Assembly: GCF_025602895.1 (NCBI RefSeq)
Contig: NW_026516505.1
Coordinates: 1-28,946, forward strand
DNA length: 28,946 nucleotides
Source of the DNA: Polychytrium aggregatum
Lineage: Eukaryota > Chytridiomycota > Chytridiomycetes > Polychytriales
Direction: 5' to 3'
The notes under the pieces are model-generated. The model did no database searches. It was not told the origin of the DNA and saw only the letters and a program-made list of their open reading frames with translations. Within the stretch, counting starts at the first letter, position 1; every line of letters begins with the position of its first letter. Shown piece after piece: positions 1 to 19,074 of this stretch. A program made the translations under genes and the position numbers.

Positions 1-2748
1 AACGCCCTCGCACGTGGTTGGATCTCCAAATCCTCTTCTCCCGTTGGTGCTCCCTGCTTCTTCGTGAAGAAGCCCAATGGTGGTCTTCGCCTTTGCGTCG
101 ACTACCGGGGCCTCAATGCCATCACGAAGAAGAACCGCTACCCTCTTCCCCTCTTCCAGGATCTTCTGGATAAACTTTCTTCTGCCCGCGTCTTCTCACA
201 CCTTGACCTTCCTGATGCTTACCACTTGGTTCGTGTCAAGAAGGGCGATGAGTGGAAGACTGCTTTTGTTTGCAAATCTGGCTCTTACGAGTACAATGTT
301 ATCCCCTTTGGTCTTTCGAATGCCCCCGCTGCTTTTCAGTTTTTTATGAACGACATCTTCTCGGACCTCCTTGGTGTCTGTGTTGTCATTTATCTTGACG
401 ACATCCTGATCTTCTCAAAAGATCCCCTGGAGCATGAGGAGCATGTTAAGCTTGTTCTTTCTCGCCTTCGTGAACACTCTCTTAAGGTCAATCCGGCCAA
501 GTGTTCTTTTGACCTTTCTGAAGTTGACTTTCTCGGCATGATCATTTCTGCCGATGGCATTAAAATGGACCCTGCCAAGGTCGAGGCCGTTTCCCTTTGG
601 CCTGTTCCCTCTTCTGCTCGCGACATCCAAGTTTTTATTGGTTTCGCAAACTTTTACCGCCGCTTCGTCAAGGACTTTTCCGCACTTGCTCGTCCTTTGA
701 CTTCACTCACCACCAAATCCTCCACCTTCTCTTGGTCTCCCGAGGCCCAAGAGGCTTTTGATTCTCTTAAACGTTCATTCACTTCCGCACCTATTCTTCG
801 TTACTTTGATTTCTCCAAACCCGCTGTCATCGAGCCCGATGCTTCTGACTTTGCTCTGGGTGCCGTCCTTTCCCAGTTTGACCCTGACGGCGCTCTTCAC
901 CCCGTTGCTTTTCACTCTCGGCAATTCCGTCCCGCCGAGGTGAATTATGACACCCACGACAAAGAGCTCCTTGCTATTGTCGATTCCTTTACTGCCTGGC
1001 GTCATTACTTGATGGCTGCCGACCCCGATCATCCCACTCTTGTTTTCTCTGATCACCAGAACCTCACCCGGTTCACTTCCGCTTCCCAACTTTCTCGCCG
1101 CCAGTTCCGGTGGGCCCAATTCCTTTCTGATTTTGCTTTTCGCATTTACCACCGCCCTGGTCGCCTCAACACCAAAGCCGATGCTCTCAGTCGCCGTTCT
1201 GACTTTGAGATAAAGCCTGGTGACTCCCTCCACTCCACCAACTTCCTTCAGCTGTTCGAGTCTATTTCTCTCGACAGCATCACCGTTATCGGCTCGAACC
1301 CCGATTTTCTTTCCGAGATTCGAGCTGCCACCCTTTCTTGTTCCCTTCTTTCTGACTTCAACGCCAAACGTCTTGATGGCGATTACTCCTTCCGTGACGG
1401 TCTCCTTTACTTTAAAGACCTGATCGTTGTCCCTTCCCCCGAGCTCCAGCTCAAAGTGTTTGAGCAACGTCACTGCTCCGCTGCCGCTGGTCACTTTGGT
1501 CTTGCCAAGACCGTTGAGCTCATCTCCCGGGACTTTCACTGGCCCCGGCTTCGTAAGTCTGTGCGTCGCTTCATTGCTAATTGTGAAGCGTGCCAGCGAG
1601 CCAAGCCGTCCCGTCACTCCCCTTATGGTTTACTTCACCCTCTCCCCGTTCCTTCCGAACGTTGGTGGGACCTGTCGATGGACTTCATCACGGATCTCCC
1701 ACCTTCGAACGGCTTTGACTCCATCTTCGTGGTTAAGGACCGCCTGTCCAAACAAGCACACTTTGTGCCCACCACGAAGACGGTTACAGGCGAGCAAACC
1801 GCCGAACTCTTCCTCTCCCACATCTTCCGCTTGCATGGTTGTCCCCGGTCTATTGTTTCGGACCGAGGAACTCAGTTTACTTCGGCCTTCTGGAGGCGCT
1901 TCAATGAGCTTCTGAAGACGAAGATTTCCCTTTCTTCTGCCTTCCACCCCGAGACCGACGGTTCGACCGAGGTTCTCAACCAGGTCATCGAGCAGTATTT
2001 GCGTATCCATTGCAATTACCTGCAAGACGACTGGACCCTTCACCTTCCCCTTGCCGAGTTCACTTACAACAACTCGGAAAACACCTCCACTGGCATGACT
2101 CCCTTCTTTGCAGTCCATGGCCATCACCCCATTTTTGATCCCTCCATCATCCGTGTTCCTTCTGTTGTGCCCTCTGCCGAAGAACGTGTCGACCGACTTC
2201 AGACCGTTCTCGAGGATCTCAAGGCCAACCTCCGGGTTGCCCAAGAGTCCTACACTTTGCAGGCCAACAAATCCCGTCTCCCCACTCCCGACATCTCCGT
2301 TGGCGACCTCGTTTTTCTTGATCGTCGCCACATCCGCACCCTTCGTCCCTCCAACAAGCTTGATCAGAAAAAGCTTGGCCCCTTTAAAGTTCTTCGCCGC
2401 ATCAACCCCGTTGCCTTTGAACTTAAACTCCCTTCCACACTCAAAGTCCACCCCGTCTTTCATGTATCCCTCCTTGAACCCCGAACGAAGGACATTGTTC
2501 CCGAGTTCACCCAACCCGAACCTCCACCCATTCTTGTTGACTCCCAGGAAGAGTTTGAGGTCGAGACTGTTCTCGATTCTCGGCTCTTCCGTGGTCGCTT
2601 ACAGTACTTGGTTCAGTGGAAGGGCTATTCCGAGACTGACCGGTCTTGGGAGCCCGCTGCCAATGTTTCCCACGCCACTGATCTTGTTGCTGACTTCCAC
2701 CTTCGCTATCCCTCAAAGCCGAAGGCGACGCCCGGAGTTCGTCGCTAA
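1..2748 (+). CDS. pol: Pol polyprotein (RT-RNase H-integrase-chromodomain), 5' partial
   Basis: The reading frame is open from base 1, inside the RT fingers; the in-frame GTG at 64 is not a real start. RT copies element RNA, with the YLDD active site near 391-402. RNase H follows, with the EPDASD motif near 832 and DKEL near 958. The integrase has an HHCC zinc domain (HC...GH then CEAC, about 1470-1600) and D, D, E residues near 1681, 1861 and 1969. A C-terminal chromodomain (about 2550-2720, YLVQWKGY and SWEP motifs) probably directs integration to marked chromatin. No frameshift or stop interrupts the visible 915 codons, so this part looks functional. It is clearly a different family from the second chromovirus at 6009-12271: only the conserved motifs match. 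Codons favour C and T at third positions. Confidence 0.96.
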   Translation, partial: NALARGWISKSSSPVGAPCFFVKKPNGGLRLCVDYRGLNAITKKNRYPLPLFQDLLDKLSSARVFSHLDLPDAYHLVRVKKGDEWKTAFVCKSGSYEYNVIPFGLSNAPAAFQFFMNDIFSDLLGVCVVIYLDDILIFSKDPLEHEEHVKLVLSRLREHSLKVNPAKCSFDLSEVDFLGMIISADGIKMDPAKVEAVSLWPVPSSARDIQVFIGFANFYRRFVKDFSALARPLTSLTTKSSTFSWSPEAQEAFDSLKRSFTSAPILRYFDFSKPAVIEPDASDFALGAVLSQFDPDGALHPVAFHSRQFRPAEVNYDTHDKELLAIVDSFTAWRHYLMAADPDHPTLVFSDHQNLTRFTSASQLSRRQFRWAQFLSDFAFRIYHRPGRLNTKADALSRRSDFEIKPGDSLHSTNFLQLFESISLDSITVIGSNPDFLSEIRAATLSCSLLSDFNAKRLDGDYSFRDGLLYFKDLIVVPSPELQLKVFEQRHCSAAAGHFGLAKTVELISRDFHWPRLRKSVRRFIANCEACQRAKPSRHSPYGLLHPLPVPSERWWDLSMDFITDLPPSNGFDSIFVVKDRLSKQAHFVPTTKTVTGEQTAELFLSHIFRLHGCPRSIVSDRGTQFTSAFWRRFNELLKTKISLSSAFHPETDGSTEVLNQVIEQYLRIHCNYLQDDWTLHLPLAEFTYNNSENTSTGMTPFFAVHGHHPIFDPSIIRVPSVVPSAEERVDRLQTVLEDLKANLRVAQESYTLQANKSRLPTPDISVGDLVFLDRRHIRTLRPSNKLDQKKLGPFKVLRRINPVAFELKLPSTLKVHPVFHVSLLEPRTKDIVPEFTQPEPPPILVDSQEEFEVETVLDSRLFRGRLQYLVQWKGYSETDRSWEPAANVSHATDLVADFHLRYPSKPKATPGVRR

Positions 2749-2760
2749 GGAAGGGGATGA
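2747..2760 (+). other. Polypurine tract of chromovirus 1
   Basis: A purine-rich stretch (aaggaaggggatga, from the last base of the stop region) sits directly before the LTR start TGTTAG. This is the expected primer site for plus-strand DNA synthesis. Confidence 0.65.
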
Positions 2761-3551
2761 TGTTAGGGATAGCTTCTGCTTGTTCTCCACTTTGACTGCA
2801 CACTTGGCTGTTCTTTTGCCTTTCTGTTTGTTTGTGTGTAGCTTTGCAGTTCCCCTCCAATTTTCCGCCTTTTGCCTGCCATTTCCGCTCCTTCCGCACT
2901 TCCGTTTCCCCGCGCTGCTCCGCTTCCTTTGTCTTCTTCGCACGCGCCGGTTTGTTTGTGCACGCGCCTTGCTGCGATTGGTTGCAATTCGGCTGCCGGT
3001 CATGTGTCCCACCACCGGTGACTCATGACCTGCCTGACCGCCCCGATCTCTTGTTCATCTCGCATGCATTTGCCCCAACCTTATACTTGACCAATCCGCT
3101 TCTTGGACGTTGAGTCACATTGCTTCGCCTTTGCACGTTTCTCCTGCCAGGTGCTTCGCTTTTGCTTGCGCCTCCCTCGCTTTGGTTCTCTGCCTGTCTC
3201 GGTGGTCCTTCTCGGCCCTCGTTCGTGCATCGCCCCCTTCGCCCTGCTCGATCGCCCACTTTTCCCTCCCTTGGCCGCCCTTCGCTGCCAAGTCCGGACT
3301 TGTCTATAAATAGCCTGACCCCCGCGATGTGTAGTCGAACCTCAGCGTTCAAAATAGGACTAAATAAAGTGCCTTCTACTTTATTCTCTGAGTGTTCCTC
3401 ACGTCTCATTTCGAGACTAGTCTTATCTTGAACGGATCTTTGCTTCCCTCGCTCCCTCTCCGAGTCCACTTCGGACTTTACCCTTGCCTTCCCTGAGCTC
3501 ACTTCGAGCTCACTTCTTCTTTTGCCGTTGAGTCCCCTTCGGACTCTAACA
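2761..3551 (+). repeat. 3' LTR of chromovirus 1 (791 bp)
   Basis: Begins TGTTAG and ends CTAACA, a perfect 6-bp terminal inverted repeat with the canonical TG...CA ends, right after the polypurine tract. The right boundary is fixed because LINE sequence resumes at 3552. It holds a TATA-like box (3305-3312), an AATAAA signal (3363-3368), two bZIP-type 7-mers (3019-3025 and 3111-3117) and four small hairpins near the end (3403-3546). Confidence 0.9.
3305..3312 (+). promoter_or_regulatory. TATA box and downstream poly(A) signal in LTR 1
   Basis: TATAAATA lies at 3305-3312, with AATAAA 51 bases downstream at 3363. This order fits an LTR whose U3 promoter and polyadenylation signal flank the R region. 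Assigned from sequence only. Confidence 0.6.
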
Positions 3552-3718
3552 GTTCACCCGCTTGGTCTCAGACCTTGTGGGCAGCTGAGGCAGCACTAGG
3601 CTGCAACAGGAGTAAATAGGCTTGCCTGTGTACTCAACGTGCCGGGGTACCAACCTGTTGGACCTGATGGCTTGTCTTCTTGAATAAAGTTGACTATAGT
3701 AACAAAAAAAAAAAAAAA
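3552..3718 (+). mobile_element. LINE copy A, 3' tail only in window
   Basis: These 152 bases plus a 15-A tail match the 3' ends of LINE copies B (from 16232) and C (from 18909). They carry the last 12 codons of ORF2, the stop, a short 3' UTR with AATAAA, and the terminal motif GTTGACTATAGTAAC followed by poly(A). The rest of this copy was displaced to the left, beyond the window, by chromovirus 1. The poly(A) is followed with no spacer by CCTAA repeats. The last lines match copy C (TTGAATAAAG) rather than copy B (TTAAATAAAG). Confidence 0.93.
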
Positions 3719-3786
3719 CCTAACCTAACCTAACCTAACCTAACCCTGACCCTGACCTAACCTAACCTAACCTAACCTAACCCTGA
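3719..3786. repeat. Telomere-like tract (CCTAA with CCCTGA variants)
   Basis: Parsed directly: five CCTAA units, two CCCTGA, five CCTAA, one CCCTGA, 68 bp in all. On the other strand this reads TTAGG/TCAGGG. The C-rich strand running left to right is the orientation of a left chromosome end. The tract lies exactly between the poly(A) of LINE A and the 5' end of LINE B, so it is now interstitial. The pentamer is the arthropod-type unit; most fungi use TTAGGG, so whether this equals the host telomere repeat is unknown. Confidence 0.85.
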
Positions 3787-3800
3787 CACATCGAGTTCTC

Positions 3801-3935
3801 TGCTCCTGCCGCACCTATCCTGCTCCTGCTGCACCTGTCCTGCTCTTGCTGCACCTGTCCTGCTCTTGCTGCACCTGTCCTGCTCTTGCTGCACCTGTCC
3901 TGCTCCTGCTGCACCTGTATTGCTCTTGCTGCACC
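3801..3935 (+). repeat. 20-bp tandem repeats in LINE 5' leader
   Basis: Six full units and one partial unit of a 20-mer close to tgctcttgctgcacctgtcc; units at 3841, 3861 and 3881 are identical and the outer ones vary at one to three bases. They lie between the telomere-like tract and ORF1. Tandem leader repeats in other LINEs can carry promoter activity; that role is inference here. Confidence 0.9.
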
Positions 3936-4043
3936 GTGTGGCCTGCACCACACTGCTTTCACCTCTGTGTTTGTTCCAGCTCTGCCCCTCCAGTTCCCCG
4001 CCCTCGCTCCCACACTCCCTGTCCCCTTCCCCACTGCTGAGCG

Positions 4044-6008
4044 ATGTCCAAGGACAGACCCCAGCAGTCCCTTCTCCCGGCCTCGACCATCGCTGTCGGC
4101 AGCTTGATCTTCAAGCGCAAGGAGCGACCCGTGGCCACCCCTTCCTCCCCCGCCAAGCGTCGCCTGTCCTTGCCCGACGCAATGACCATGCTCCCCAGGC
4201 CGGAGCATGACGAGCGTCTCCCCGAGTCCGAGTTCCCGTCCGTGTCCGTGCCCGAGTCCAGGCTCCCGGCCCCGCCCGAGTTCAGGTTCCCGGCCGAACC
4301 CGACTTTTCGTTCCCGCCCTTGGACCGCGCTGCCGCCCGTGCCGCCGTCGACATTGATGAACTGGAGGACATCAATGTCGAAGAAGACCTCAGCCCGGAC
4401 CAAGAGCCTGACGCTGAGCCCTCGTCCTCCTGTGCCGACCAAGACCACCCTGCCGAGTCCCTGGCTCCCGTGTCCTCCTCCGCCGCTCCCCACCAAGACC
4501 ACTGTGCCATGGACATTGTTGTCCAGCCCAGTGCCGACGTCGTCTCGGTTCCTTGGCGCGACGAGTTCTGGCGCAAGTGGCACGCCTCGTCCGACGTCGA
4601 TGATCAGAAGGCTGCAACCCAGATCATCGACGTCACCAAGATGAACAACCAGCTGTGGATGGCCGTGACCGCCAAGCTGCAGTGCACTGTCCTGTGCCGC
4701 AAGTGCAAGCTCGCCTCGGCCGATCCCTGGATCGTCGTCAAGCACGGCAAGGACGAGCTCCAGCTCAAGTGTCCCCAGGCCCTCGAGGACGGACCCTGCC
4801 CCGGCCAGATGTCGGCCTTCCAGTTCTGGGCCCACATGAGCCGCACCACCAAGGAGTCCCGCAAGCTGTTTGTGGATGCGTTCTCGGACAAGTTCAAGGA
4901 GAACTTCCACACCAAGTGCGGCCTCAAGACCATGGACAAGCAGCGCGCCGTCCCCCGTGGTGCCTCTGAAGGCGCCCCTCGAGCAGCCCCTGCTTCCACT
5001 GCTGACCCCGTCGATCCAGCTCGTCGAGCTGTTGATGCTGTTGGCACTGCGTCCCCTGTCCCCAAGGCCAGGCCCGTCCTTCCGCCCCGACCCGTCGTCA
5101 AGGCCAAGACCCCTCCTCCGTCCCAGGCTCCCGTCCCTGCGATGAAACCCGAGGAGGCCCTCGCTATCCTCAAGCGAGAGGCTGACCGGGTGCAGTCCAT
5201 CCTGTTCGAGGCACTCGTGGCCGACAACATGGATGCTGCCACCAAGGCCATGGTCCAGAAGATCGCCAAGTCCAATGTGGCAATCAGCCGTGCCACGGAG
5301 CAGCTCCGCAAGTCTGTTGCCAACAAGACTGCCACCCCCAAGACCCAGTCCCCCGGTTCCAAGACCCAGTCCTCCGGCTCCCTCCCTGGCTCTGCCCCTG
5401 TTTCCGCCCCGTCTCCCTCGTACAAGGCCGCTCTCTTGAAGAACGTTCGGGAGGCCGAGAGCCGTGTCGGCCGCATGTCCGAGGCCAGCCAGCTCGACGA
5501 ATGGAAGAGGATGCTGACCACCGGCCGAATGCCAGGCTCCTCCAAGCCGATCCAGCCCAACCAGCACCGCCAGCCAGTCCTTGTCCCCGGGACGGTCGCC
5601 AACTCTGAGCTCCGGAACGACAAGTTCAGGGAGGCCGTCACCAACATGGACTGGCTGTACGTCGAGGGCATCCGCTGTGGCGACCTCGGCAGTGTCCGCC
5701 GCAACCTCAAGCGATGCGGCATCGACACCAGGGAGTTGGCCGAGATCAACTTCCCTGAGGCCACGGTCATGGAGGTCCTTGTCCGCGACAAATCCAACAA
5801 GGCCGACCTTGGTGCCCGTCTGGAGTCGCTGTCGTCCACACATGGCAGGGTCAGGGTCGTACCGGCCTACGACGTCATCCATGGTCTCAAGCACCATGGA
5901 CTGGCCCTGTCCCGATCCGATGCCATCAAGAACTTTATGGCAAAGTCCCTCCGCCAGGCAGCCAAGGCCAAGACCGCCCCTGTCCGCCGCTGCATCCAGA
6001 TGCGCATC
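4044..6008 (+). pseudogene. LINE ORF1, 5' part (interrupted by chromovirus 2)
   Basis: The first 655 codons of ORF1, the nucleic-acid-binding partner expected to coat LINE RNA. The start ATG at 4044 follows the repeat leader and heads a long frame. Residues 1-170 are Pro/Ser/acidic and probably disordered. Residues 205-295 hold a Cys-rich block (C214, C218, C221, C243, C252, C292) that could bind zinc but is not a standard CCHC knuckle. Residues 310-480 are a Pro/Ala/Ser linker with a helical stretch. A conserved-looking globular part from about residue 510 (WLYVEGIRCGDLGSVRRNLK) could be RRM-like. The frame then runs into the LTR at 6009 and would end with foreign residues. The remainder resumes at 12277 in phase, so the break is a single recent insertion. 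Confidence 0.88.
6004..6008. repeat. Target site duplication, left copy (GCATC)
   Basis: GCATC directly precedes the LTR start TGTCA at 6009 and recurs at 12272-12276 directly after the other LTR. Five bases is the usual Ty3/gypsy duplication length. Confidence 0.93.
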
Positions 6009-6589
6009 TGTCAAGACTGGACAACGGGGCAAGCAGGGAAGTGCGCAAGAGTCCTAATGCAAGACTCGAACGTAGGGAGAGGAGCGGGGACTGGACTGGG
6101 ACACAGAGTGTCAAGTGTGAAGCCAAAGTTTTATTCTAGATCCAAGGCTTAGGATACTAAAAATACAAAGTGGCAAGACGAAGGCAAAAGACAGAGGCTG
6201 GTCGGAGGGCTATTTATGCGAGCGCCAAGGATCGACGCTGCAGAGCGAGGGGGCAGGAGCGAAGCAGCGGCGGGGAGGGCGAAGCAGCGAGCGAAGCAGG
6301 TGGCGGCCGTGACTCGGGATCCGTGAGTCAGCGGGCGTCAGTGGCGGCGGCTTGGCGGCGCCAAGGCGTCAGGCGGCGTCGAGGCGGCGTCGTGGGCGTA
6401 ACCCATGACCAACAGCAAGGGAGCGGGAACGGAACACAGGCAGCGCGCGTGCTTGCGGTAAGACAACAAGGCAGCACAGCGCGGGAAACAAACAAACAGA
6501 AGGAAGGGAAAGCACTAAGACAGGCAAACAGAAAGGAAAGGGCAAGGGTAAAGGAAGGGAGTGGGCAAAGGCAGAGGGTGTTCATGACA
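6009..6589 (-). repeat. 3' LTR of chromovirus 2
   Basis: On the minus strand it starts TGTCATGAACACC and ends GTCTTGACA. It matches 11691-12271 with a constant offset of 5,682. A TATA-like CATAAATA (minus, 6219-6212) and an AATAAA (minus, 6135-6130) are present. A GC-rich stretch around 6240-6400 holds many GGCG/GGCGTC motifs and an inverted TGACTC...GAGTCA pair (6310-6330). Confidence 0.95.
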
Positions 6590-6602
6590 CTACCCCCCTC
6601 TC
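6590..6602 (-). other. Polypurine tract of chromovirus 2, overlapping pol stop
   Basis: On the minus strand GAGAGGGGGG is followed by TAG (the pol stop, 6592-6590) and then at once by the LTR. The plus-strand primer and the end of pol therefore overlap and leave no spacer. Confidence 0.7.
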
Positions 6603-9600
6603 AAGGCCCGAGCTCCGAGAGGGCCAGGCTTCGAGGGATGAGAGGAGTGGTAGGCAGCGACAGGCTCCGGACAATGTGCAAGATTGCTGGCGGGCTCCCA
6701 GGTGCAATCCATCACCGTGTAGCCACGCCAGTGCACAAGATACTGGAGCTTACCTCGGAACAGCCTGGAGTCCAGGATCTGTTCGACTTCCCATTCGTCG
6801 TGGCCGTCGACTTGGATGGGTGGAGGGGGCGGGATCGTTCGACCTGGGATCTTGTCGTCGGCGGCAGGCTCGAGCAGGGAGACGTGGAAGACAGGATGAA
6901 TGCGCATGGACGAGGACAAGTCCAACTTGAAAGCGCGGGAACCGACTTGAGCGACGATCTTGAACGGCCCAAGCTTGGTGTGGTCGAGCTTGGCCGTGGG
7001 TCGCTGGGTCTTGATGTTCTTGGCGGAGAGCCAGACTCGGTCTCCAACCTTGAACGGAGGGGAAGGGGAGTGGCCGGGGTCGTAGAACTTGGCTTGGGAG
7101 TCCTGGGCGAGGGCGATGTTGAACTTGAGTTCATCGTGGAGGGAGTGAATGGCTCGGGCTTGATCGTCGGCGACGGAGGCATTCTTGGTGGTGCGGGGAA
7201 GGGCGACGGAAAAACGAGGGTGGTAGCCGGTGTAGGCGAAGAAGGGGGAGCAGCCGAGGGTTGCTTGAGAGGTGTTGTTGTAGGTGAACTCGGCGTGAGG
7301 GAGGAGCTGGGCCCAGTCGTCTTGCTGGAAGTTGATGAAGCAGCGGAGGTACTGCTCGAGGATGGCGTTGACCCGCTCGGTCTGGCCGTCGGTCTGCGGA
7401 TGGAAGGCAGTCGACATCTTGTGCTTGATCTTGAGGCGGGTCAGGACGGCTTGGAAGAACTTGGAGGCAAAGGTAGATCCTCGGTCTGAGACGATATCGT
7501 CTGGAAGACCGTGCTTGGTGAAGACATGCTCGACAAACATCCGAGCAGTGTCTTCGGCGTTGGCCTCGTTGCTTGACGGGACGAAGTGGGCCATCTTGGT
7601 GAAGCGGTCGACAAACACACAGATGGCTGTGTGTCCAGAGGACTCGGGAAGCTGGGTGATGAAGTCGACCGAAACAGAAGACCAAGGGCGATCGGGAACA
7701 GGGAGCGAGGCAAGGAGTCCGTAGGGCTTGTGACGGGAGTGCTTGTTCCGCTGGCAGGTGTCGCATCCGGAGACATACTCCTTGATGTAACGACGCATGG
7801 TCGGCCAGTGGAAGGTCCGGGAGACGAGCTCGAAGGTCTTGGCGACGCCGAAGTGGCCGGCGGTCGGCGAGTCGTGGCACTCGACGAGGATCTTGCGCTT
7901 GAGCTCGGGGACATCGGGGACGCAGACGAGACCTTCAAAGAGCAGAAGGTCGTTGTCGACGGAGTAGCCGGGACAGGAGGCAGGGTTCTTGAGGACTTGG
8001 GACAGGATCGGACCAAAGGTAGAGTCCTTCTTGAGGCTTGACTTGATGAGGACGGCGATATCCTCAGACTCGGGGGCAACGGGAACGGCTCGGAGGGCGG
8101 AAACGAAGAGTTTTGGTGGCAGCAGGGTCTGGGTGTTCGGGGAGCTACGGGAGTCACCCCCCTCCTTAGGGAACTTGTCCTTGCGGGAGAGGGCGTCGGC
8201 GGCATTGTTGAGGGTTCCGGGTCGATACCTGATGACGAAGTTGTAGTCGCCAAGGATCTCGGACCAACGGACTTGGCGACGGCTGAGGTTGCGGGAGGTC
8301 TGGAAGTATTCAAGGTTCTTGTGGTCGGTGACGACCTCGGTGGCTTGGGAGGAGAACTCGAGGTAGTGTCTCCATTGCTTGAAGGCTGCGACGATGGCGA
8401 GAAGTTCCTTATCATAGATTTGATAATTCATTTCTGCATCGAGCAGCTTCCGGGAGTAGAAGGCCACGGGGTGGAGGAGGCCTTCGTCGTCGCGCTGACT
8501 GAGAACAGCGCCAAGAGCATAGTCAGATGCGTCGGCTTCGATGACGCACTGACGCTCGGGGTCGAAGTGGCGGAGGACAGGACCGGTGCTCAGGCATTCC
8601 TTGAGCTTCAGGAATGACGTTTGAGCCGAGGGAGACCAGGAGAACTTGATGTCCTTCTTCAGGAGGTCCGTCAGCGGGGTGGCGATCTTGGAATAATCCT
8701 TGACGAACCGACGGTAGAAGTTCGCCAGGCCGAGGAAGACTTGGATGTCGTGGGCAGATCGGGGGATCTCCCACTCCTGGATGGCCTTGACCTTGTCGGG
8801 ATCCATGGAGATTCCATCGGGCGAGATGATGAACCCGAGGAAGGCGACGGAGGACTGGTCGAACTCACACTTTTCAAGCTTGAGTGAGAGTCCGGCGTCT
8901 TGGAGCTTGGTCAGGACTTTCTTGACATGAGCCTCGTGCTCGGCAGGATCGGAGGAGTAGATGAGGATGTCGTCCAGGTAGACGACCACGAACTGGTCAA
9001 GGTATTCTCGGAGGACATCGTTGACGAAGGCTTGGAACGAGGCAGGAGCGTTGGTCAAGCCGAACGGCATGACGTTGTACTCGAAGTGGCCGTAGCGACA
9101 GCGGAAGGCCGTCTTCCACTCTTCACCTTCAGCGATGCGCAAGAGGTTGTATGCGCCTCGCATGTCGAGCTTGGTGAAGATCTTGGCCTTGCCGAGGTTG
9201 TCGAACGTCTCGGCAATCAGGGGCAAGGGACAACGGTTCGGCACGGTGATCTTGTTCAGGGCCCGGTAGTCGACGCAGAGACGGAGGGAGCCATCCTTCT
9301 TCTTGACGAACAGGACTGGGGCACCGGCAGGGGACTCGGAACGGCGGATGAAACCCTTGGACAAGTTCTCTTGGATGTAGGTGTGGAGGGCGTCCATCTC
9401 CGGCTTGGAGAGGTTGTAGACGGGCCCAAACGACGGGGACGCACCTTCGACCAACGGGATCGTGTGGTCGTAAGGGCGGTGCTGGGGGAGCTTGTCGGCC
9501 TCGGACTTGGAAAACACCTTGGCAAAGGACGAGTACTTGGAGGGGACAGAGGGCTCGGCCTTGGGCTTGGCTCCAGCGTCGACGGAGCAGAGGGACAGGA

Positions 9601-10405
9601 CTCGGGCAGCATCCAAGAGGAACACTTCCAGGCCTTCCTTCTGGACGGCGTGCTGGAAGGGGATGCTGCCGATCAGGCTGACGCTGGGCAGGGACTGGGT
9701 CTTGGTCTTGGTCTTTGGGACGGCAGGAGGCAAGGCAGGACTGGGCTTGGGCACGGCAGGCTCGGCGGGGACCTCAGCAGGGGACTCGGCAGGCGGCTCG
9801 GCAGGGCTGGACCTAGAGGACTGTGGCTCGGGAGAGAACGGGGAGGCCAAACTGTGGATAGAGGTGCAAGGCAAGAAAATAGAGTCATGGTGCCAGTCAA
9901 AGTAGGGCTTGTGTTTCTTGATCCAATCCATACCCAAGATGATCGGGTATGAAGCCAAGGGAATCAGCGCGAACGAGATTTGTTCATAGTGGCTGATGCC
10001 TGTGATCATAGAAACACAAACTCCAAGACTAGACTCCATCGAAGAACCATCGGCAAGAGTGATGACGAAAGAAGTTGCAAAGGTGGGGAGAGCGTGGGTT
10101 GCGGCGAATCCAGTGTCCATAAACGAAGTAACCGCGCCGGTATCGATCATGGCGGTTGCCCGTATGGACTCTGGACCGCACAGCAGAGTCACAGCGAGGG
10201 AGGGCTGACGTTGGATGTCAGGCTCGGGAGGCGAAGACGAAGAAGCAAGAGCAGTGGAAACGGTGGCAATGGTGACGGGGGCAAGATGGCAAAAGGCAGA
10301 AGAGTGATTTACCGTGGAGACATTTACAGGAGGAAGATTTATGACATGATTGACGCCTAGGAAAGCTCCTCCGACCTTTTCTAGGCAGAGAAGTTTTCCT
10401 GGTCG
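6590..10405 (-). CDS. pol: Pol polyprotein of chromovirus 2 (protease-RT-RNase H-integrase-chromodomain)
   Basis: The frame is open from 10405 down to the TAG at 6592-6590. It overlaps the end of gag by 25 bases in the -1 frame and has no credible own start; the GTG at 10192 is just an in-frame valine. Numbering from that GTG: aspartic protease DTGA at 17-20; RT with YLDD at 405-408; RNase H with D554, E596 and D623; integrase zinc residues H773, H780, C810, C813; integrase catalytic D843, D903, E939; GPF-like LGPF at 1074; chromodomain about 1134-1185 (YLVHWRGY, TWEP). All catalytic residues are present. A Pro/Ala/Glu-rich linker (about 115-160) separates protease from RT. It is probably made as a Gag-Pol fusion and cleaved by its own protease. 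Confidence 0.96.
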   Translation of the reverse strand, partial: RPGKLLCLEKVGGAFLGVNHVINLPPVNVSTVNHSSAFCHLAPVTIATVSTALASSSSPPEPDIQRQPSLAVTLLCGPESIRATAMIDTGAVTSFMDTGFAATHALPTFATSFVITLADGSSMESSLGVCVSMITGISHYEQISFALIPLASYPIILGMDWIKKHKPYFDWHHDSIFLPCTSIHSLASPFSPEPQSSRSSPAEPPAESPAEVPAEPAVPKPSPALPPAVPKTKTKTQSLPSVSLIGSIPFQHAVQKEGLEVFLLDAARVLSLCSVDAGAKPKAEPSVPSKYSSFAKVFSKSEADKLPQHRPYDHTIPLVEGASPSFGPVYNLSKPEMDALHTYIQENLSKGFIRRSESPAGAPVLFVKKKDGSLRLCVDYRALNKITVPNRCPLPLIAETFDNLGKAKIFTKLDMRGAYNLLRIAEGEEWKTAFRCRYGHFEYNVMPFGLTNAPASFQAFVNDVLREYLDQFVVVYLDDILIYSSDPAEHEAHVKKVLTKLQDAGLSLKLEKCEFDQSSVAFLGFIISPDGISMDPDKVKAIQEWEIPRSAHDIQVFLGLANFYRRFVKDYSKIATPLTDLLKKDIKFSWSPSAQTSFLKLKECLSTGPVLRHFDPERQCVIEADASDYALGAVLSQRDDEGLLHPVAFYSRKLLDAEMNYQIYDKELLAIVAAFKQWRHYLEFSSQATEVVTDHKNLEYFQTSRNLSRRQVRWSEILGDYNFVIRYRPGTLNNAADALSRKDKFPKEGGDSRSSPNTQTLLPPKLFVSALRAVPVAPESEDIAVLIKSSLKKDSTFGPILSQVLKNPASCPGYSVDNDLLLFEGLVCVPDVPELKRKILVECHDSPTAGHFGVAKTFELVSRTFHWPTMRRYIKEYVSGCDTCQRNKHSRHKPYGLLASLPVPDRPWSSVSVDFITQLPESSGHTAICVFVDRFTKMAHFVPSSNEANAEDTARMFVEHVFTKHGLPDDIVSDRGSTFASKFFQAVLTRLKIKHKMSTAFHPQTDGQTERVNAILEQYLRCFINFQQDDWAQLLPHAEFTYNNTSQATLGCSPFFAYTGYHPRFSVALPRTTKNASVADDQARAIHSLHDELKFNIALAQDSQAKFYDPGHSPSPPFKVGDRVWLSAKNIKTQRPTAKLDHTKLGPFKIVAQVGSRAFKLDLSSSMRIHPVFHVSLLEPAADDKIPGRTIPPPPPIQVDGHDEWEVEQILDSRLFRGKLQYLVHWRGYTVMDCTWEPASNLAHCPEPVAAYHSSHPSKPGPLGARALRGG
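10381..10405 (-). promoter_or_regulatory. Gag-pol overlap, likely -1 frameshift region
   Basis: The gag stop (TAG, minus 10383-10381) and the pol-frame upstream stop (TGA, minus 10408-10406) bracket a 25-nt window where the -1 shift must occur if pol is made as a fusion. It contains GGAAAAC, an imperfect slippery heptamer, so the exact site is not proven. Confidence 0.5.
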
Positions 10406-11619
10406 TCAAGTTTATTCACATCAACGACAGCCAAAGAAGCATCGATGGCAGCCAAGCGGGAGGATGCCTTATTGGGGCAGCGAAGGGCAATGTGCCCTTC
10501 CTGCTTGCAATAAAAGCAGCGGTTGGCAGCACGGAGGGCGGCCTTGTCCTCGGCGGTCAGCCTGCGAGCGGAGGCCTGGCTGAGGTCCATGGGCTGCGGA
10601 ACGTTGAAGGCTTGAGCGGGGCGAGGAGGAGGAGCAGGAGCGAAGGGGCGAGGAGCCGGACGGAAAGGGAGAGGAGCCGGACGAGCAGGAGCAGGAGCAG
10701 GAGCGGAGCGGTGGTTGGGACGGCGGGAACGTTGGTCCTCCTGGCGGTTGTCGATGGCGATCGCCGCTTGCATGAGATCTTCGAGGTTGTCGAAGGAGCG
10801 GCGGGAGAGTTCGTCTTGAACCGAGGGCTTGAGTCCACTCTCGAAGTGGAACATGAGAGGGTCTTGGGACCAAGTGAGGAGGTGGACGGCTTGGCGGCGG
10901 TACTCGGCGGCATAGGCGGCGGCGGAGGTGACTTGGTAAAGCCTGACCATCTCGCGAGCAGCGGCGATGGTGGGCTGGACCTGGCCAAAGGCAGCACGGA
11001 GCCACTCGGAGAAACCGGCAAAGTCACGGATGGCAGGGGGAGAGCACTCGGGGTCTCTCTCCAACTGATCGATGTACGGCTGCATGTAGTCTGCAGCAGT
11101 ACCATCGAGATAGGATAAGGCGTAGAACACCTTATCCCTTTCAGTCTGGAAGAGGGGAGGGTTGGACACGAAGGCCAGTCTGCAATGCGAGAGGAAGGCA
11201 TTGCAGCGGCTCGGGTCCTTACCAGAGAAGCGATCAGGGGGACCTATCTGCCTGGTGGCAGAGTTGCGACCAGCAGGGTTGTCCTCGGGGTCTTGGGCAG
11301 GATCATCGACGTCGTCAGGAACGCCGAAGTAGGGGCGACCTGCACGACGGATCGGGGCGGGAGCGGGAGCAGGAGGAGGTAGCTGGGCCTGGTAGCTGCG
11401 GAGGGCCTCCTGGACACTGGCGGCGACCACTTGGCGGACATCCTCTTCACGGCGAGCCAGGACCTGGTCCATACGATCGGTGATGCGGTTGAGCGCATCA
11501 TCCTGATCGTGGAGGAACTTGGAAAAGTCCTGGAGAGAACGGGCGTTCTCGGCGGACTGGATAATGACCGCACGGATGGCCTGGAGCTCGGGCTCGGAAA
11601 GGCCAGAAGGGGAAGCCAT
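10381..11619 (-). CDS. gag: Gag of chromovirus 2
   Basis: 412 codons. The ATG at 11619 was chosen because it is the first after the 5' LTR and leader; the longer frame reaching 11808 would start inside the LTR. Residues 1-80 form a helical, heptad-like region (SLQDFSKFLHDQDDALNRI). A Pro/Ala linker follows, then a retrotransposon Gag capsid-like domain (about 110-280: DRFSGKDPSRCNAFL through FHFESGLKPSVQDEL). A Pro/Arg-rich stretch (about 295-345) leads to one zinc knuckle CFYCKQEGHIALRC (C-x2-C-x4-H-x4-C), which binds element RNA. It ends in the overlap with pol. It would form the virus-like particle. Confidence 0.93.
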   Translation of the reverse strand: MASPSGLSEPELQAIRAVIIQSAENARSLQDFSKFLHDQDDALNRITDRMDQVLARREEDVRQVVAASVQEALRSYQAQLPPPAPAPAPIRRAGRPYFGVPDDVDDPAQDPEDNPAGRNSATRQIGPPDRFSGKDPSRCNAFLSHCRLAFVSNPPLFQTERDKVFYALSYLDGTAADYMQPYIDQLERDPECSPPAIRDFAGFSEWLRAAFGQVQPTIAAAREMVRLYQVTSAAAYAAEYRRQAVHLLTWSQDPLMFHFESGLKPSVQDELSRRSFDNLEDLMQAAIAIDNRQEDQRSRRPNHRSAPAPAPARPAPLPFRPAPRPFAPAPPPRPAQAFNVPQPMDLSQASARRLTAEDKAALRAANRCFYCKQEGHIALRCPNKASSRLAAIDASLAVVDVNKLDDQENFSA

Positions 11620-11690
11620 TGGTAAAAGAGATAGAGAAGGGGACGGGGCAAAGGCAGGGCAAGTGGGGGGTTGTTGAAGGTCTTGCCAAG

Positions 11691-12271
11691 TGTCAAGACT
11701 GGACAACGGGGCAAGCAGGGAAGTGCGCAAGAGTCCTAATGCAAGACTCGAACGTAGGGAGAGGAGCGGGGACTGGACTGGGACACAGAGTGTCAAGTGT
11801 GAAGCCAAAGTTTTATTCTAGATCCAAGGCTTAGGATACTAAAAATACAAAGTGGCAAGACGAAGGCAAAAGACAGAGGCTGGTCGGAGGGCTATTTATG
11901 CGAGCGCCAAGGATCGACGCTGCAGAGCGAGGGGGCAGGAGCGAAGCAGCGGCGGGGAGGGCGAAGCAGCGAGCGAAGCAGGTGGCGGCCGTGACTCGGG
12001 ATCCGTGAGTCAGCGGGCGTCAGTGGCGGCGGCTTGGCGGCGCCAAGGCGTCAGGCGGCGTCGAGGCGGCGTCGTGGGCGTAACCCATGACCAACAGCAA
12101 GGGAGCGGGAACGGAACACAGGCAGCGCGCGTGCTTGCGGTAAGACAACAAGGCAGCACAGCGCGGGAAACAAACAAACAGAAGGAAGGGAAAGCACTAA
12201 GACAGGCAAACAGAAAGGAAAGGGCAAGGGTAAAGGAAGGGAGTGGGCAAAGGCAGAGGGTGTTCATGACA
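11691..12271 (-). repeat. 5' LTR of chromovirus 2
   Basis: Same 581 bases as the 3' LTR at 6009-6589. It serves as promoter for the minus-strand element: TATA-like CATAAATA at minus 11901-11894 and AATAAA at minus 11817-11812. On the minus strand the leader after it reads CTTGGCAAGACC; the TGG two bases from the LTR could begin a tRNA primer site, but I cannot name the tRNA. Confidence 0.94.
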
Positions 12272-12276
12272 GCATC
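12272..12276. repeat. Target site duplication, right copy (GCATC)
   Basis: Second copy of the 5-bp duplication, directly after the LTR end TGACA. Removing 6009-12276 restores the ORF1 reading frame. Confidence 0.93.
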
Positions 12277-12597
12277 CCCGAGGAGTACCGCGACGAGTAC
12301 GACTCGCTCCTCAAGAAGGCCCTATCCGGCAAGGAGGTCAAGCGGGCGGACATCACCGCCGTCCCCAAGGTCCCTGGTTCTGCCGCTGCCGCTGCCTCGT
12401 CGTCTGCCTCTGCCGCTGCCGCTACCGCTGCCCCTGCCGTTGTCGTTGCTGTCGCTGCTGCTGCTGCCCCCGCCGCTGGTGCCTCGTCAAAGCCCAGCAA
12501 GCCTCACCCCGCCTACAGAGTCCCGCTGTCCGTCATGGACACTGACTCTGAAGGAGAGGGCCCCCGGGCCAGCAGCAGCGCTGCACGACTCCAATGA
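12277..12597 (+). pseudogene. LINE ORF1, 3' part
   Basis: The last 106 codons of ORF1, in phase with 4044-6008 when the LTR element and one GCATC are removed, giving a 761-residue protein. It continues the globular part (PEEYRDEYDSLLKKALSG) and then becomes a long Ala/Ser/Val low-complexity stretch and a short acidic tail. It stops at TGA 12595-12597, which overlaps the ORF2 start ATG at 12594-12596. It is now cut off from its own start by the insertion. Confidence 0.85.
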
Positions 12598-15500
12598 ATC
12601 CACACCCCTCGCAGGGAGGCGGCAGGGCCCAGACATCCCTGACCGTCGCTTCCTTCAATGTCTGTGGCATCAACGTCAACGACGTTGAACTCAAGAACCT
12701 CATCGACACCAACGACATCGACTTTGTCGGTGTCCAAGAAACCCTCGCCGACCTCGAACCCCGCAGCCCTCTCTGTGGCTATGCCGTCAAGGTCCCTGGT
12801 CCCCGTTGCCGCGCCGGTAGAGGCATCGCCATCCTCTACAACCCGGCCAGGATCGACCCGCACGACTTCACCAACATTGAAGTCAGCGACAAGGGCGACG
12901 CCATGTGGGTGACATACAAACACGTCATCCACATCGGCAACTTCTACCTGTCCCCGAGCCTCAAGCTGGACGACTACCGCGAGGCCCTCCAGTCGATCCA
13001 CACCAAGGCCGCCCTCCCCGACGCCCAGGTCATTGTGGTGGGTGACTTCAATGCCCACCTCAGTGCCCTGAGCGGACTGCCCACGCCGCTCCGTGGCAGG
13101 GAGAAGATCCTCGAGGACACTGTCTCCCGCGCCGGTCTCCGCGTTGTGCCTCCAGCTGTGATCCCGACCCACACCCGGCAGCGGGGTCCCAGCTGGACAA
13201 CGATCGACTACATCTTTGTGTCGCATCGCCAGGCCAACAACGACCCGCTGCTGCAGGTCGACACTGCCGGTGCCTTCCGTGGCCAGTCCGACCACTTCCC
13301 CATCTGGGCGACTCTGCGGGTACAGCCAAAGTACTACCCAAAGGTCGACCAATGGCAGTGGAAGATCGCCCAGCTCGAGGATCCCGCCGTCCGCGCCCAG
13401 TACCTCTTGGCGCTGCTGGACGAGCGCGAACGCGGTCTGCAGCGCATACAGGCTGCACTCCGGCCAATCTCAAGGGGATCGGTCATTCCGATCTCGGAGA
13501 GTGCGGCCCAGGACTGCATCGACCGCGCCTGGTCCATCATGATCGCCCTGATCACCACCGCTGCCGACTCCACCATCGGCAAGGCTTCCATCAAGACCGT
13601 CTGGAAGGACCCGGCCCTGATCCCCGAGATGCGGCAGCTTCGCGAGAGGCGCCGCGATCTCATCTACCAGCTCAAGTTGCCCGGGCTCTCCCTCCGCGTC
13701 GCCGAGGACAAGCGCGCCGAACTCCGCGCTGTCCGCAAACAAGAAAAGAACCTCATCGTCCAGTCCCGCCGAGCAGCCGAGACCCTGGCCATGAACAAGC
13801 TGCACTCACTCAACGCTTCCGAGGTCGCCAAGTCCCTGGCCGCCATGAAGAAGCGCAAGGAGCTCGACGACGCCTTCCACTTTGACAACTCGGACGAGGC
13901 CCTCGAGCGACTTGTGGTCCACTACGGCAAGGTCTCCTCGCACTCCCAGGACACCCCCGGTGCCGCCTTTGACCGGACCGTCGGCCCAAGACCCCTGGAC
14001 ACTGTTCCGCGCCTGCTCCCCGAGGATCGATCCATTCCCCGCTTGTCGTCGGACGAGGTGGCCGATGCCATCGTCAAGTCCCCCAAGCGCAAGTCCTCCG
14101 GCCCGGACAAGATCAAGGCCGAGATGCTGCACCCTGTCGCTCCCGTGGTCGCTCCCTGGCTCCGGGCCATCCTGCTGGCCGCCCTCAAGGCCTCCGTCGT
14201 CCCGACCGAGTGGAACACTGTCCTGATCCACCCGGTCTACAAGAACAAGGGTTCGATCCTCGATCCGGCCATGTACCGGCCCATCGGGTTGACCCAGGTC
14301 CTCCGCAAGATCGCCGAGCGAGTCCTGCTGCCGTTCCTCACCCGCGAGATCGGCATCATGGACATTGCCCAGGGAGGCTTCCGCCCGGACCGAGGCACCC
14401 TCGACCAGGTGTACTCGCTCGACGCTCTTGTCCGCATGAACAAGATCTGCGACGACGAGTACAGCCTGGTCTTCCTCGACATCAAGGCCGCCTACGACAC
14501 TGTCTGGCGGGAGCGCCTCTGGGACAAGATCGCCGCCCGAGGTGCTGGTCCGGTCGCCGTCGGGGTCCTCAGGGCCATGTTCGACCGCACTCTTGTCCGC
14601 GTCGCCAGCAAGGGCCGCACGTCACAGCCTGTGTGGCTGCAGAAGGGTCTCATCCAAGGCTCGGTCCTGAGTCCCCTTCTGTTCAGTGCCCACATTGACG
14701 ACCTGCCTGGACTGCTCCGAGCCGAGGACGGACTTGTGCTTGCCTCCAGTCGCCACCACCGTCTCCGGGTCAACTCGCTCTGGTTTGCCGACGATGGTGT
14801 CCTCATCTGTCCGGCTGGCCGCACCCAGGCCATGCTGGACATCTGTGAGCGTCACAGTGTCGACAATCGCTACCGCTTCTCGCCTCCCAAGTGCGAGGTG
14901 CTGTACTCGGCCTGCAACGTCGACCAGCTCCATCCCGCCAAGCTGTACGGCACCGAGCTGCCCAAGGTCCTCCAGTTCCGCTACCTCGGTGTCATGGTCG
15001 ACATTGACGGATTCCGCCCGGACCTCCAGTTCGACAAGCTCCTCCGCAAGGTCCACATGGTCACCGACACCGTGGTTGGACTTGGCATCACCCTCGGCAA
15101 GGTCTCGGCCAAGACCATCACCCAGGTCTACAAGACCTTTGTGCGGCCGACCCTCGAATACGGGATGGCCATGGACATCCCGGACCCGGCTCTGCGCGAC
15201 CGCCTCGACGACGCCCAGATGACGGCCCTCCGCACCATGTTCCGCGTCGGCCCCGGCACTCCCGTCGGTGCCATGCACCTCAACTGCGGCCTCCCCAAGA
15301 TGTCCGTCCGTGTCAAGATGCTGGCCCTGCAGAACTGGGCCCGCTGGGACGACCAAGTCTCTGACGGCGACAAGATGCTGTCGATGATCCTGCGCAACAA
15401 GATCATTGCGCCCTACCACCCCGACCAGTTCCTCGGCCAAGGAGTCCGAGCCGATCCGCACTGGGCCATGGTGGTCCGCCGACAAGAGGCCGACCACTCC

Positions 15501-16268
15501 CTCACGGCCACGGAGATCTACCGAGGCAAGACCCGACACCAGCCGCCGCCGCCCGGACCGCCCCGACCCCAGCCCGTCCCGATCAAGACCCTCATCTTCG
15601 AGGACCACATGAAGAACGGCTTCGACCGCTCCAAGCAGCTCACCGCCGCCTGCACCCCGTCGACCAAGATGTCGGGACTCTGGGAGGCTCGCGGGTACCA
15701 AGGATCCATGGTCATGCTCATGTTCATGGTCCGATGGCGACTCGGTGCTCTCCCAGGCCACTTCAGGTTCGGATACCGCAAGTGCAAGAACCTGGCTCGA
15801 CACGGATCCGGGATCGACTTGACCAGGACCCACGCACAGCAATGTGTGGATCCGCATCAAGTCCTGGTCCGCAAGGTCGCAGCCCTCAAGACGGCCCACC
15901 CGACTTGGGTGGAAAGTGGTATAGCCGGAGTGGGACCAGTGGACAAGCTGCTGGACCTGCTCTCTTTCGATCGCACTCCCCCTCGCACTCGCACCCCTCC
16001 CGCACTTGGATCGCTTGCTGCTCATGTACCCGCTCCCCGCACTGCCTTCCGAGCATTCGCACTTGGTGCACACCCAGTACCAGCACCCACTCCCACAACC
16101 AGTGTAGTCCCACCCTTGCAGTCTCTCCCTGCACCCTCATCACAGCGTAGTATAGTGCCAGCACTTGTCACTCCACCACCCCGACCTCCCGTCGATCCTG
16201 CTATTCCCTTGTGGGAACTGCTTGAAAATGTGTTCACCCGCTTGGTCTCAGACCTTGTGGGCAGCTGA
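12594..16268 (+). CDS. LINE ORF2: APE endonuclease-reverse transcriptase
   Basis: 1,224 residues, intact. It nicks target DNA and reverse-transcribes element RNA from the nick or end. The endonuclease (about 15-245) has N22, E49 (VQET), GDFNAH at 150-155, T203/D205 and the terminal SDHFPI at 232-237, so catalytic residues are present. RT (about 490-780) shows the KSSGPDKIKAE block, the AAYDTVW segment, QGSVLSPLLF and the FADD active site at 731-734. A C-terminal region (about 1020-1100) carries RWRLGALP then a Cys/His set (C, H, H, C in RKCKNLARHG...RTHAQQC) like LINE terminal zinc domains. The last 100 residues are Pro/Ala-rich. No RNase H domain is seen. The ATG at 12594 overlaps the ORF1 stop, so translation probably depends on termination and reinitiation. 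Confidence 0.95.
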   Translation: MNPHPSQGGGRAQTSLTVASFNVCGINVNDVELKNLIDTNDIDFVGVQETLADLEPRSPLCGYAVKVPGPRCRAGRGIAILYNPARIDPHDFTNIEVSDKGDAMWVTYKHVIHIGNFYLSPSLKLDDYREALQSIHTKAALPDAQVIVVGDFNAHLSALSGLPTPLRGREKILEDTVSRAGLRVVPPAVIPTHTRQRGPSWTTIDYIFVSHRQANNDPLLQVDTAGAFRGQSDHFPIWATLRVQPKYYPKVDQWQWKIAQLEDPAVRAQYLLALLDERERGLQRIQAALRPISRGSVIPISESAAQDCIDRAWSIMIALITTAADSTIGKASIKTVWKDPALIPEMRQLRERRRDLIYQLKLPGLSLRVAEDKRAELRAVRKQEKNLIVQSRRAAETLAMNKLHSLNASEVAKSLAAMKKRKELDDAFHFDNSDEALERLVVHYGKVSSHSQDTPGAAFDRTVGPRPLDTVPRLLPEDRSIPRLSSDEVADAIVKSPKRKSSGPDKIKAEMLHPVAPVVAPWLRAILLAALKASVVPTEWNTVLIHPVYKNKGSILDPAMYRPIGLTQVLRKIAERVLLPFLTREIGIMDIAQGGFRPDRGTLDQVYSLDALVRMNKICDDEYSLVFLDIKAAYDTVWRERLWDKIAARGAGPVAVGVLRAMFDRTLVRVASKGRTSQPVWLQKGLIQGSVLSPLLFSAHIDDLPGLLRAEDGLVLASSRHHRLRVNSLWFADDGVLICPAGRTQAMLDICERHSVDNRYRFSPPKCEVLYSACNVDQLHPAKLYGTELPKVLQFRYLGVMVDIDGFRPDLQFDKLLRKVHMVTDTVVGLGITLGKVSAKTITQVYKTFVRPTLEYGMAMDIPDPALRDRLDDAQMTALRTMFRVGPGTPVGAMHLNCGLPKMSVRVKMLALQNWARWDDQVSDGDKMLSMILRNKIIAPYHPDQFLGQGVRADPHWAMVVRRQEADHSLTATEIYRGKTRHQPPPPGPPRPQPVPIKTLIFEDHMKNGFDRSKQLTAACTPSTKMSGLWEARGYQGSMVMLMFMVRWRLGALPGHFRFGYRKCKNLARHGSGIDLTRTHAQQCVDPHQVLVRKVAALKTAHPTWVESGIAGVGPVDKLLDLLSFDRTPPRTRTPPALGSLAAHVPAPRTAFRAFALGAHPVPAPTPTTSVVPPLQSLPAPSSQRSIVPALVTPPPRPPVDPAIPLWELLENVFTRLVSDLVGS

Positions 16269-16399
16269 GGCAGCACTAGGCTGCAACAGGAGTAAATAGG
16301 CTTGCCTGTGTACTCAACGTGCCGGGGTACCAACCTGTTGGACCTGATGGCTTGTCTTCTTAAATAAAGTTGACTATAGTAACAAAAAAAAAAAAAAAA
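16269..16399 (+). other. 3' UTR and poly(A) tail of LINE B
   Basis: A short 3' UTR shared by copies A, B and C. It holds a small hairpin (CCAACCTGTTGG), an AATAAA, and the near-palindrome GTTGACTATAGTAAC right before the As. The constant sequence at this end suggests the RT recognises it. Confidence 0.85.
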
Positions 16400-16432
16400 T
16401 AAAGTTGACTATAGTAACAAAAAAAAAAAAAA
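16400..16432 (+). mobile_element. LINE tail micro-copy (33 bp)
   Basis: Consists only of the final 19-21 bases of the LINE (taaagttgactatagtaac) plus 14 As, wedged between the poly(A) of copy B and the truncated 5' end of copy C. It is either an extremely 5'-truncated insertion or a template slip during synthesis of copy B. Confidence 0.85.
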
Positions 16433-18945: not shown

Positions 18946-19072
18946 GGCAGCACTAGGCTGCAACAGGAGTAAATAGGCTTGCCTGTGTACTCAACGTGCC
19001 GGGGTACCAACCTGTTGGACCTGATGGCTTGTCTTCTTGAATAAAGTTGACTATAGTAACAAAAAAAAAAAA
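16433..19072 (+). mobile_element. LINE copy C, 5'-truncated
   Basis: A 2.64-kb copy starting at the equivalent of base 13756 of copy B and ending with 12 As at 19061-19072. The coding part is the same length as in copy B (2,513 bp, no indels), with about 35 substitutions counted by eye. It is not followed by telomere-like repeats but by CC and the ATG of the 19075 ORF. Confidence 0.95.
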
Positions 19073-19074
19073 CC

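Follow-up and report, generated by a model that had tools for sequence, protein, structure and literature searches.

Introduction

HeT-A, TART and TAHRE of Drosophila, members of the Jockey clade, form one-way, head-to-tail arrays at chromosome ends with their 3′ oligo(A) facing inward; TART and TAHRE carry an apurinic/apyrimidinic endonuclease (APE), and priming on the chromosome end without a nick is thought likely (PMC5537684, in its passages on these elements). Here we describe a long interspersed nuclear element (LINE) of the chytrid Polychytrium aggregatum, found through a junction between a LINE poly(A) tail and telomere-like repeats that a first-pass annotation had picked out in a 28,946-nucleotide stretch of DNA. 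This stretch, referred to as the window, is the entire contig NW_026516505.1 (C228). Our conclusion, to which we give a probability of roughly 0.8, is that this APE-type LINE adds itself to chromosome ends by retrotransposition, taking turns there with telomere repeats. Like the Drosophila elements as that source presents them, the LINE forms one-way, head-to-tail end arrays with the poly(A) inward and encodes an APE-type endonuclease. Unlike in Drosophila, which lacks both telomerase and short repeats, contig ends here carry TTAGG arrays and the assembly encodes a telomerase RNA-binding domain, so that the host setting of the HeT-A family is not found, and unlike HeT-A, TART and TAHRE this LINE also sits on Ty3 elements and other DNA.

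The Zepp element of Coccomyxa (‘Chlorella’) has poly(A)-telomere joins and truncated tandem copies. It belongs to LINE/L1, and this L1-like LINE was originally reported as clustered at the termini of chromosomes, in a genome that also has short telomere repeats (sections of PMC3446292 and PMC10088271). Compared by behaviour alone, the LINE studied here likewise clusters at termini in such a genome, as far as those sections describe Zepp. The first-pass annotation had named Zepp as a parallel, and the behaviour does fit, but the parallel is weaker than was thought because most Zepp clusters in later genomes are located within chromosomes and probably mark centromeres (according to the relevant parts of PMC3446292 and PMC11005252). 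TRAS and SART of silkworm and Tribolium (R1 clade) are also APE-type LINEs joined to TTAGG/CCTAA repeats in genomes with telomerase. In the section of the review that treats them (PMC4700185), they are inserted inside telomere repeats, where only full-length copies occur, and their endonuclease cuts TTAGG between T and A. In contrast to that description, most copies that we read are truncated, and 38 of 200 tails lie on telomere repeats while most join other DNA.

MoTeR and FoTeR of Magnaporthe and Fusarium turn their 5′ end toward the terminus, their 3′ end is followed by a short telomere run (of about 3-7 repeats), and tandem repeats lie near the 5′ end (PMC12857005, where it describes their structure). 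All three features recur in the LINE described here. The MoTeR/FoTeR endonuclease, however, is restriction-enzyme-like (REL), whereas open reading frame 2 (ORF2) of this LINE matches the APE-type Pfam families Exo_endo_phos (1.6e-13) and Exo_endo_phos_2 (4e-11), the REL domain not having been searched by a model of its own. Among more distant systems, the Gil elements of Giardia are assigned to CRE. GilM, GilT and the Athena elements (terminons) of rotifers form one-way, head-to-tail arrays with 5′ truncations; Athena, which is Penelope-like, has short telomere stretches at its 3′ end, and terminons carry extra ORFs (PMC5537684, in the part on these elements). On that account our LINE resembles them in its one-way arrays of 5′-truncated copies, and their extra ORFs may be compared with the helicase-bearing segment described below, but they are other classes of element. 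By analogy, the LINE would work like HeT-A/TART, Gil and Zepp, but as an APE-type LINE that alternates with telomere repeats. Among the literature matches listed, we recognised no earlier report of such an APE-type LINE in chytrids or other fungi.

Results

LINE copies lie near contig ends and point outward

The assembly searched comprises 64.7 Mb in 418 contigs. With one mismatch allowed, the 3′ end of the LINE was found at 200 places, compared with 0 for the reversed control. Two exact variants of this 3′ end occur at 51 and 146 places, and the counts of location and polarity use the 151 of these 197 that were listed (51 + 100), 77 of which lie on 28 contigs of at least 75 kb. On these contigs, 75 of the 77 listed copies are within 60 kb of a contig end, a zone that holds 19.4% of the sequence, and 73 of those 75 have the 5′ end outward. 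The outward copies listed occupy 29 contig arms; they are terminal and one-way, with the 3′ end inward. Short contigs with more than one copy, among which three contigs of unknown length were counted, show a single orientation in 18 of 19 cases.

Copies are chained head to tail and capped by telomere repeats

A survey of 66 LINE 5′ boundaries in 42 fragments (268 kb) found them to adjoin the poly(A) of the next copy (30, a class that is favoured because most loci were fetched around 3′ ends), telomere repeats (17), a segment upstream of the LINE start (6) or other DNA (13). The left part of a LINE target, that is, its other half, was present at 0 of the 66, and the copies form head-to-tail chains without target halves. 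The 13 boundaries with other DNA are in our reading mostly ends of long terminal repeat (LTR) elements, together with two pieces of diverged LINE and one case on C2, in which a Ty3-bearing insert lies in a LINE that lacks about 880 bases.

Chains with the poly(A) inward and telomere repeats outermost are seen on C323, C40 and C39, the first two being the clearest arms. At the end of C323, LINEs that begin at LINE positions 5556, 3711, 3711 and 4145 follow one another outward, each joined through its own poly(A), and the last is capped by telomere repeats. The end of C40 consists of a LINE from position 2634, two full-length copies with 68-nt and 31-nt arrays, a LINE from position 6100 and the terminal telomere. 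At the start of C39, telomere repeats sit on a 36-nt LINE stub, the tail of which joins a 30-nt array on a LINE from position 3572. The first-pass annotation had suggested looking for CCTAA and LINE sequence together at contig ends, and telomere arrays are indeed found directly on LINE copies at C39, C40, C204, C239 and C323. Arrays sit on LINE base 1 (C239, where the terminal array is 455 nt long, and others) and on truncated copies at bases 3420 (C38), 3572 (C38 and C39), 4145 (C323), 5136 (C204), 6100 (C40) and 6304 (C39).

Internal arrays on the LINE start come in two recurring forms of 31 and 68 nt (window 3719-3786; C2, C20, C40, C59, C239 and C358). Because so few array lengths recur inside chains, blocks were probably copied between arms. 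The recurring lengths also raised the idea that the LINE RNA carries the array at its own 5′ end, which we did not adopt because the 455-nt array of C239 is attached to that very LINE base and arrays also occur on truncated LINEs. On C207, eight telomere-joined LINE tails with spacing that alternates between about 2808 and 2957 bases make up a tandem array of LINE/telomere units.

Poly(A) tails join resident DNA that begins after an A

The first-pass annotation had proposed that the bases after each poly(A) be tabulated. Thirty-eight of the 200 tails join CCTAACC directly, and all 38 read poly(A)/CCTAACC (the slash marks the join), in one phase. The proposal that a telomere 3′ end acts as primer needs amending, in that telomere repeats are a minority substrate; the other 162 tails fall outside the telomere pattern. 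In the loci that were fetched, tails outside that pattern join truncated LINEs of the same or related families, Ty3 elements, the helicase-bearing segment and unassigned DNA. The fetched loci and the window together give 55 distinct 40-nt flanks after tails, of which 26 lie inside the LINE (positions 860-6321), 2 in the segment upstream of its start and 5 in telomere classes. The remaining 22 comprise one further LINE join, nine flanks that match ORF2 at 37-58% identity and that we read as related LINEs, three that match Ty3 proteins, two in the helicase segment and seven without a match, two of which first touch a Ty3 LTR.

A resident A stands just before the join in 24 of the 26 distinct LINE joins against a background of 18% (p=3e-16), and A/CC is found at 12 of 24 where 17% is expected (p=3e-4), p-values that serve only as a guide because some of the joins may not have arisen independently. 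Where the other DNA at a join has a counterpart among the fetched loci, the A is present in 7 of 10 cases; self-hits and two hits starting at base 3 are not in this count, nor is the extra LINE join, where the A is likewise present. The joins to the upstream segment have it at 1 of 2. Apart from this A, and the C after it, no further fixed base was seen around the 26 joins. The resident A at 24 of 26 joins therefore suggests that the chromosomal 3′ end that was extended finished in T; on the other strand it would read as a 3′ end in T, often GGT, like the telomere strand TTAGGT(T). One LINE tail on C40 sits on sequence that is also present at window position 19365 (97.6% identical), 292 bases further in than the join at 19073 in the window.

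The genome has TTAGG ends and a telomerase domain

Perfect 60-nt CCTAA arrays gave 167 overlapping matches in the assembly, and the 100 of these that were listed all lie on C39, C40, C112, C204 and C239, at most 350 bases from a contig end, with the C-rich strand at contig starts and the G-rich strand at the end of C40. The end of C323 has the same repeat, and from this pattern we take the telomere repeat to be TTAGG. Three pieces at C408:433538-434141 together encode a telomerase RNA-binding domain. On C40, C112, C323 and C239, the telomere unit closest to the LINE or the segment starts CCCTG and not CCTAA, which could reflect telomerase starting at one template position on non-telomeric ends.

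The junction and the parts of the window

The junction that drew attention to this contig was confirmed, with a tail of 15 A (3704-3718), 68 nt of CCTAA/CCCTGA repeats (3719-3786) and a LINE (LINE B) from 3787, without a spacer. The array after the tail is of telomere type, as had been claimed, but it is not pure CCTAA, since CCCTGA units are mixed in: it reads (CCTAA)5(CCCTGA)2(CCTAA)5CCCTGA, ten CCTAA and three CCCTGA units. Tandem Repeats Finder called it at 3717-3782 with a score of 100. The remnant of LINE A (3552-3703) terminates in GACTATAGTAAC before its tail, and the first bases of LINE B are CACATCGAG. Repeats of the CCTAA type and joins of tails to them are commoner than chance: CCTAACCTAACCTAACCTAA has 379 matches in the assembly versus 36 for its reversed control (overlapping matches counted), and the LINE tail followed by CCTAACCTAACC gave 46 rows, which are 38 places since eight were matched twice, against 0 for the reversed control. 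Both LINEs of the first-pass annotation are present but neither is an uninterrupted element. LINE A is just the last part of one (3552-3718 with its tail), cut on the left by a Ty3/gypsy end, and LINE B does start after the array but is split by a Ty3/gypsy insert, for which the LTR edges are approximate. There are additional poly(A) joins in the window, from the tail of LINE B to a 19-nt LINE stub with its own tail, from there to LINE C, and from LINE C to non-LINE sequence at 19073. The parts are as follows.

3552-3703, + strand: LINE A, 3′ remnant, cut on the left by a Ty3/gypsy LTR end
3704-3718, + strand: poly(A) of LINE A, 15 A
3719-3786, + strand: telomere-type array, TTAGG on the other strand; the same repeat ends contigs C39, C40, C112, C204, C239 and C323
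3787-6013, + strand: LINE B, 5′ part, with 20-nt tandem repeats at 3800-3935 and ORF1 from 4044
6014-12271, - strand: Ty3/gypsy element with chromodomain, inside LINE B; identical 581-bp terminal repeats at 6009-6589 and 11691-12271
12272-16383, + strand: LINE B, 3′ part, with ORF2 at 12594-16268 (APE-type endonuclease and reverse transcriptase) and the 3′ untranslated region
16384-16399, + strand: poly(A) of LINE B, joins the LINE stub
16400-16432, + strand: 19-nt LINE stub (LINE from about position 6321) with its own 14-A tail
16433-19072, + strand: LINE C, 5′-truncated, from LINE position 3712 onward; 12-A tail at 19061-19072 joins non-LINE sequence at 19073

The array at 3719-3786 may itself have been copied here by subtelomeric recombination, because it is one of the few discrete forms found on many contigs.

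Besides the two endonuclease families, ORF2 matches the Pfam reverse transcriptase (3e-24), and no RNase H family was found in it with Pfam at the threshold used. ORF1 matches no Pfam family; its listed 702-aa frame continues into the Ty3 insert. By sequence, the nearest solved structures to ORF2 are LINE-1 ORF2p (6.9e-16) and R2 (7.4e-12), and the endonuclease part alone had no match in the PDB. Twelve protein relatives of ORF2 were found, at 21-27% identity. GDFNAH, SDH and FADD can be read in its translation, and we take these to be catalytic motifs of the two domains. With endonuclease and reverse transcriptase in one ORF, a poly(A) 3′ end and variable 5′ truncation, the LINE is classed on its sequence as an APE-type non-LTR retrotransposon.

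The window also has a 380-aa ORF (19899-21041) with a Cas12f1-like TNB domain (PF07282, 3.4e-15), TnpB-like and in a eukaryote assembly, which is presumably Fanzor-like. Its non-repeat part holds a Sel1-repeat protein (21214-22980, 1.2e-59) and a 409-aa ORF (26416-27645) with no Pfam match.

A helicase segment upstream of LINE starts

In 40 scored copies, the match to the LINE start begins at base 1 in 15 and at base 2 in 25. Seven of the base-2 copies were read (C135 twice, C79, C1, C13 twice and C112), and in 7 of 7 a shared segment precedes the LINE start. The positions recorded for these segments upstream of LINE starts are as follows.

C135:684519 and C135:693473
C79:885623
C112:276-2750
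C1:351-1151
C13:1011097 and C13:1027704

The longer ones encode part of a D5-like helicase (PDB C962R primase, E 3e-5), and against Pfam DUF5906 the segment reaches 26.5 bits, below the cut-off of 27.6. Between the end of the helicase match and the LINE start lie 1507 bases at each of ten places, spread over nine contigs (C135 twice, C35, C291, C46, C112, C245, C217, C285 and C79). Like the LINE, the segment is truncated at varied points and is capped by poly(A) or telomere repeats in the same way. A longer element may have this segment as its 5′ part, or recombination may have spread it as a captured gene. Four places, on C101, C182, C193 and C374, hold a 1036-aa open frame of another helicase family that shares 57% identity with the first; their scores are equal. 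Telomere-joined LINE tails are also found on C182 and on C374, where they recur regularly about every 5178 bases.

Discussion

The suggestion of the first-pass annotation that reverse transcription of the LINE RNA starts from a chromosomal 3′ end as its primer is supported by the outward polarity of 73 of 75 listed copies, by the lack of target halves at 66 boundaries and by the contig ends that carry telomere repeats on LINEs. In the mechanism that we favour, the 3′-ending strand of an exposed or eroded chromosome end would finish in T, often GGT or GGTT, whether that end consisted of host DNA, a Ty3 element, a truncated older LINE or the stub of a telomere. The poly(A) of the LINE RNA would pair with the terminal T, and the LINE reverse transcriptase would extend the chromosomal 3′ end, so that the primer would be a free 3′ end and no nick. 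The cDNA, often 5′-incomplete, would become the new chromosome end, and either telomerase would cap it with TTAGG repeats or the next LINE RNA would be added. Subtelomeric recombination would then copy LINE/telomere blocks between arms. The LINE would, on this model, still be active.

Several observations weigh against this mechanism. The ORF2 endonuclease domain looks intact, and a purely end-attaching element would not need one. Two of the 77 listed copies are interior (C375:462325 and C112:710323, the latter followed by CCTAACC and then by what we read as Ty3-like sequence), and two listed copies have the opposite orientation (C28:132331 and the degenerate C68:854257). Among the joins, the A is absent from 2 of 26 within the LINE, from 3 of 10 to other DNA and from 1 of 2 to the upstream segment. 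Several contig ends that bear copies have no telomere in the assembly (e.g. C2, C79, C135 and C358), the few discrete lengths of the internal arrays point to copying by recombination, and most of the loci that we read were cut around 3′ ends.

An alternative for the origin of the joins is targeted insertion of the TRAS type, in which telomere repeats and sequence like them are nicked after GGT or GGTT by the endonuclease of the LINE, the nick serves as the starting point for reverse transcription, and the outer piece is lost or recombined away. Such a nick with loss of the outer piece leaves the same sequence marks as priming on a free end, and the presence of an APE-type endonuclease domain, the single phase of all 38 telomere joins and the enrichment of A/CC at LINE joins are consistent with it, as is the cut between T and A of TTAGG that is reported for TRAS/SART (PMC4700185, in the section cited above). 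We nevertheless consider it unlikely. Most tails lie outside the telomere pattern, the 26 LINE joins share no fixed base beyond the A and the C after it, and no distal target half was found at any of the 66 boundaries, so that loss of the outer piece would need to be the rule under nicking.

Recombination among subtelomeres could also, by itself, have spread a few ancestral LINE/telomere blocks through unequal exchange or break-induced replication, in which case attachment would be ancient and rare. Many contigs do share arrays (of 31 and 68 nt) and joins, and the tandem spacing on C207 and C374 is regular, but at least 26 distinct truncation points inside the LINE have a poly(A) join, nearly all with the A, and because recombination would not choose such truncation points we regard this explanation as highly improbable. 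LINEs are known to insert into older LINEs, and assemblies fail at repetitive contig ends, so that ordinary nested insertions into subtelomeres rich in repeats, or chimeras made where the assembly collapsed ends, have to be considered as well. These are hardly credible given the polarity of the listed copies and the correctly oriented telomere arrays on the distal side of the chains at five contig ends. Ordinary nested insertion was rejected on the boundaries, where a LINE target half was found at 0 of 66. Attachment of the LINE to chromosome ends is the explanation that we retain. An extended form of it, which we hold to be possible but doubtful, has telomerase and the LINE alternate as the two polymerases of the end, with the LINE healing any end that finishes in T (telomere stub, older LINE, Ty3 or host DNA) and a long form of it carrying a 5′ D5-like (C962R/D5 type) helicase gene within the mobile unit.

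It seems that chromosome ends in this organism are built jointly by two different reverse transcriptases. The primer signature, a single terminal T, can be measured on telomere, LINE and other DNA alike, and both the sharing of ends between telomerase and the LINE and the primer needs of the LINE are therefore testable. Former chromosome ends can leave a record in the form of short telomere arrays within contigs. End-attaching LINEs are known from scattered lineages, best from Drosophila, which has no telomerase; here such a LINE would be found alongside TTAGG ends and a telomerase domain.
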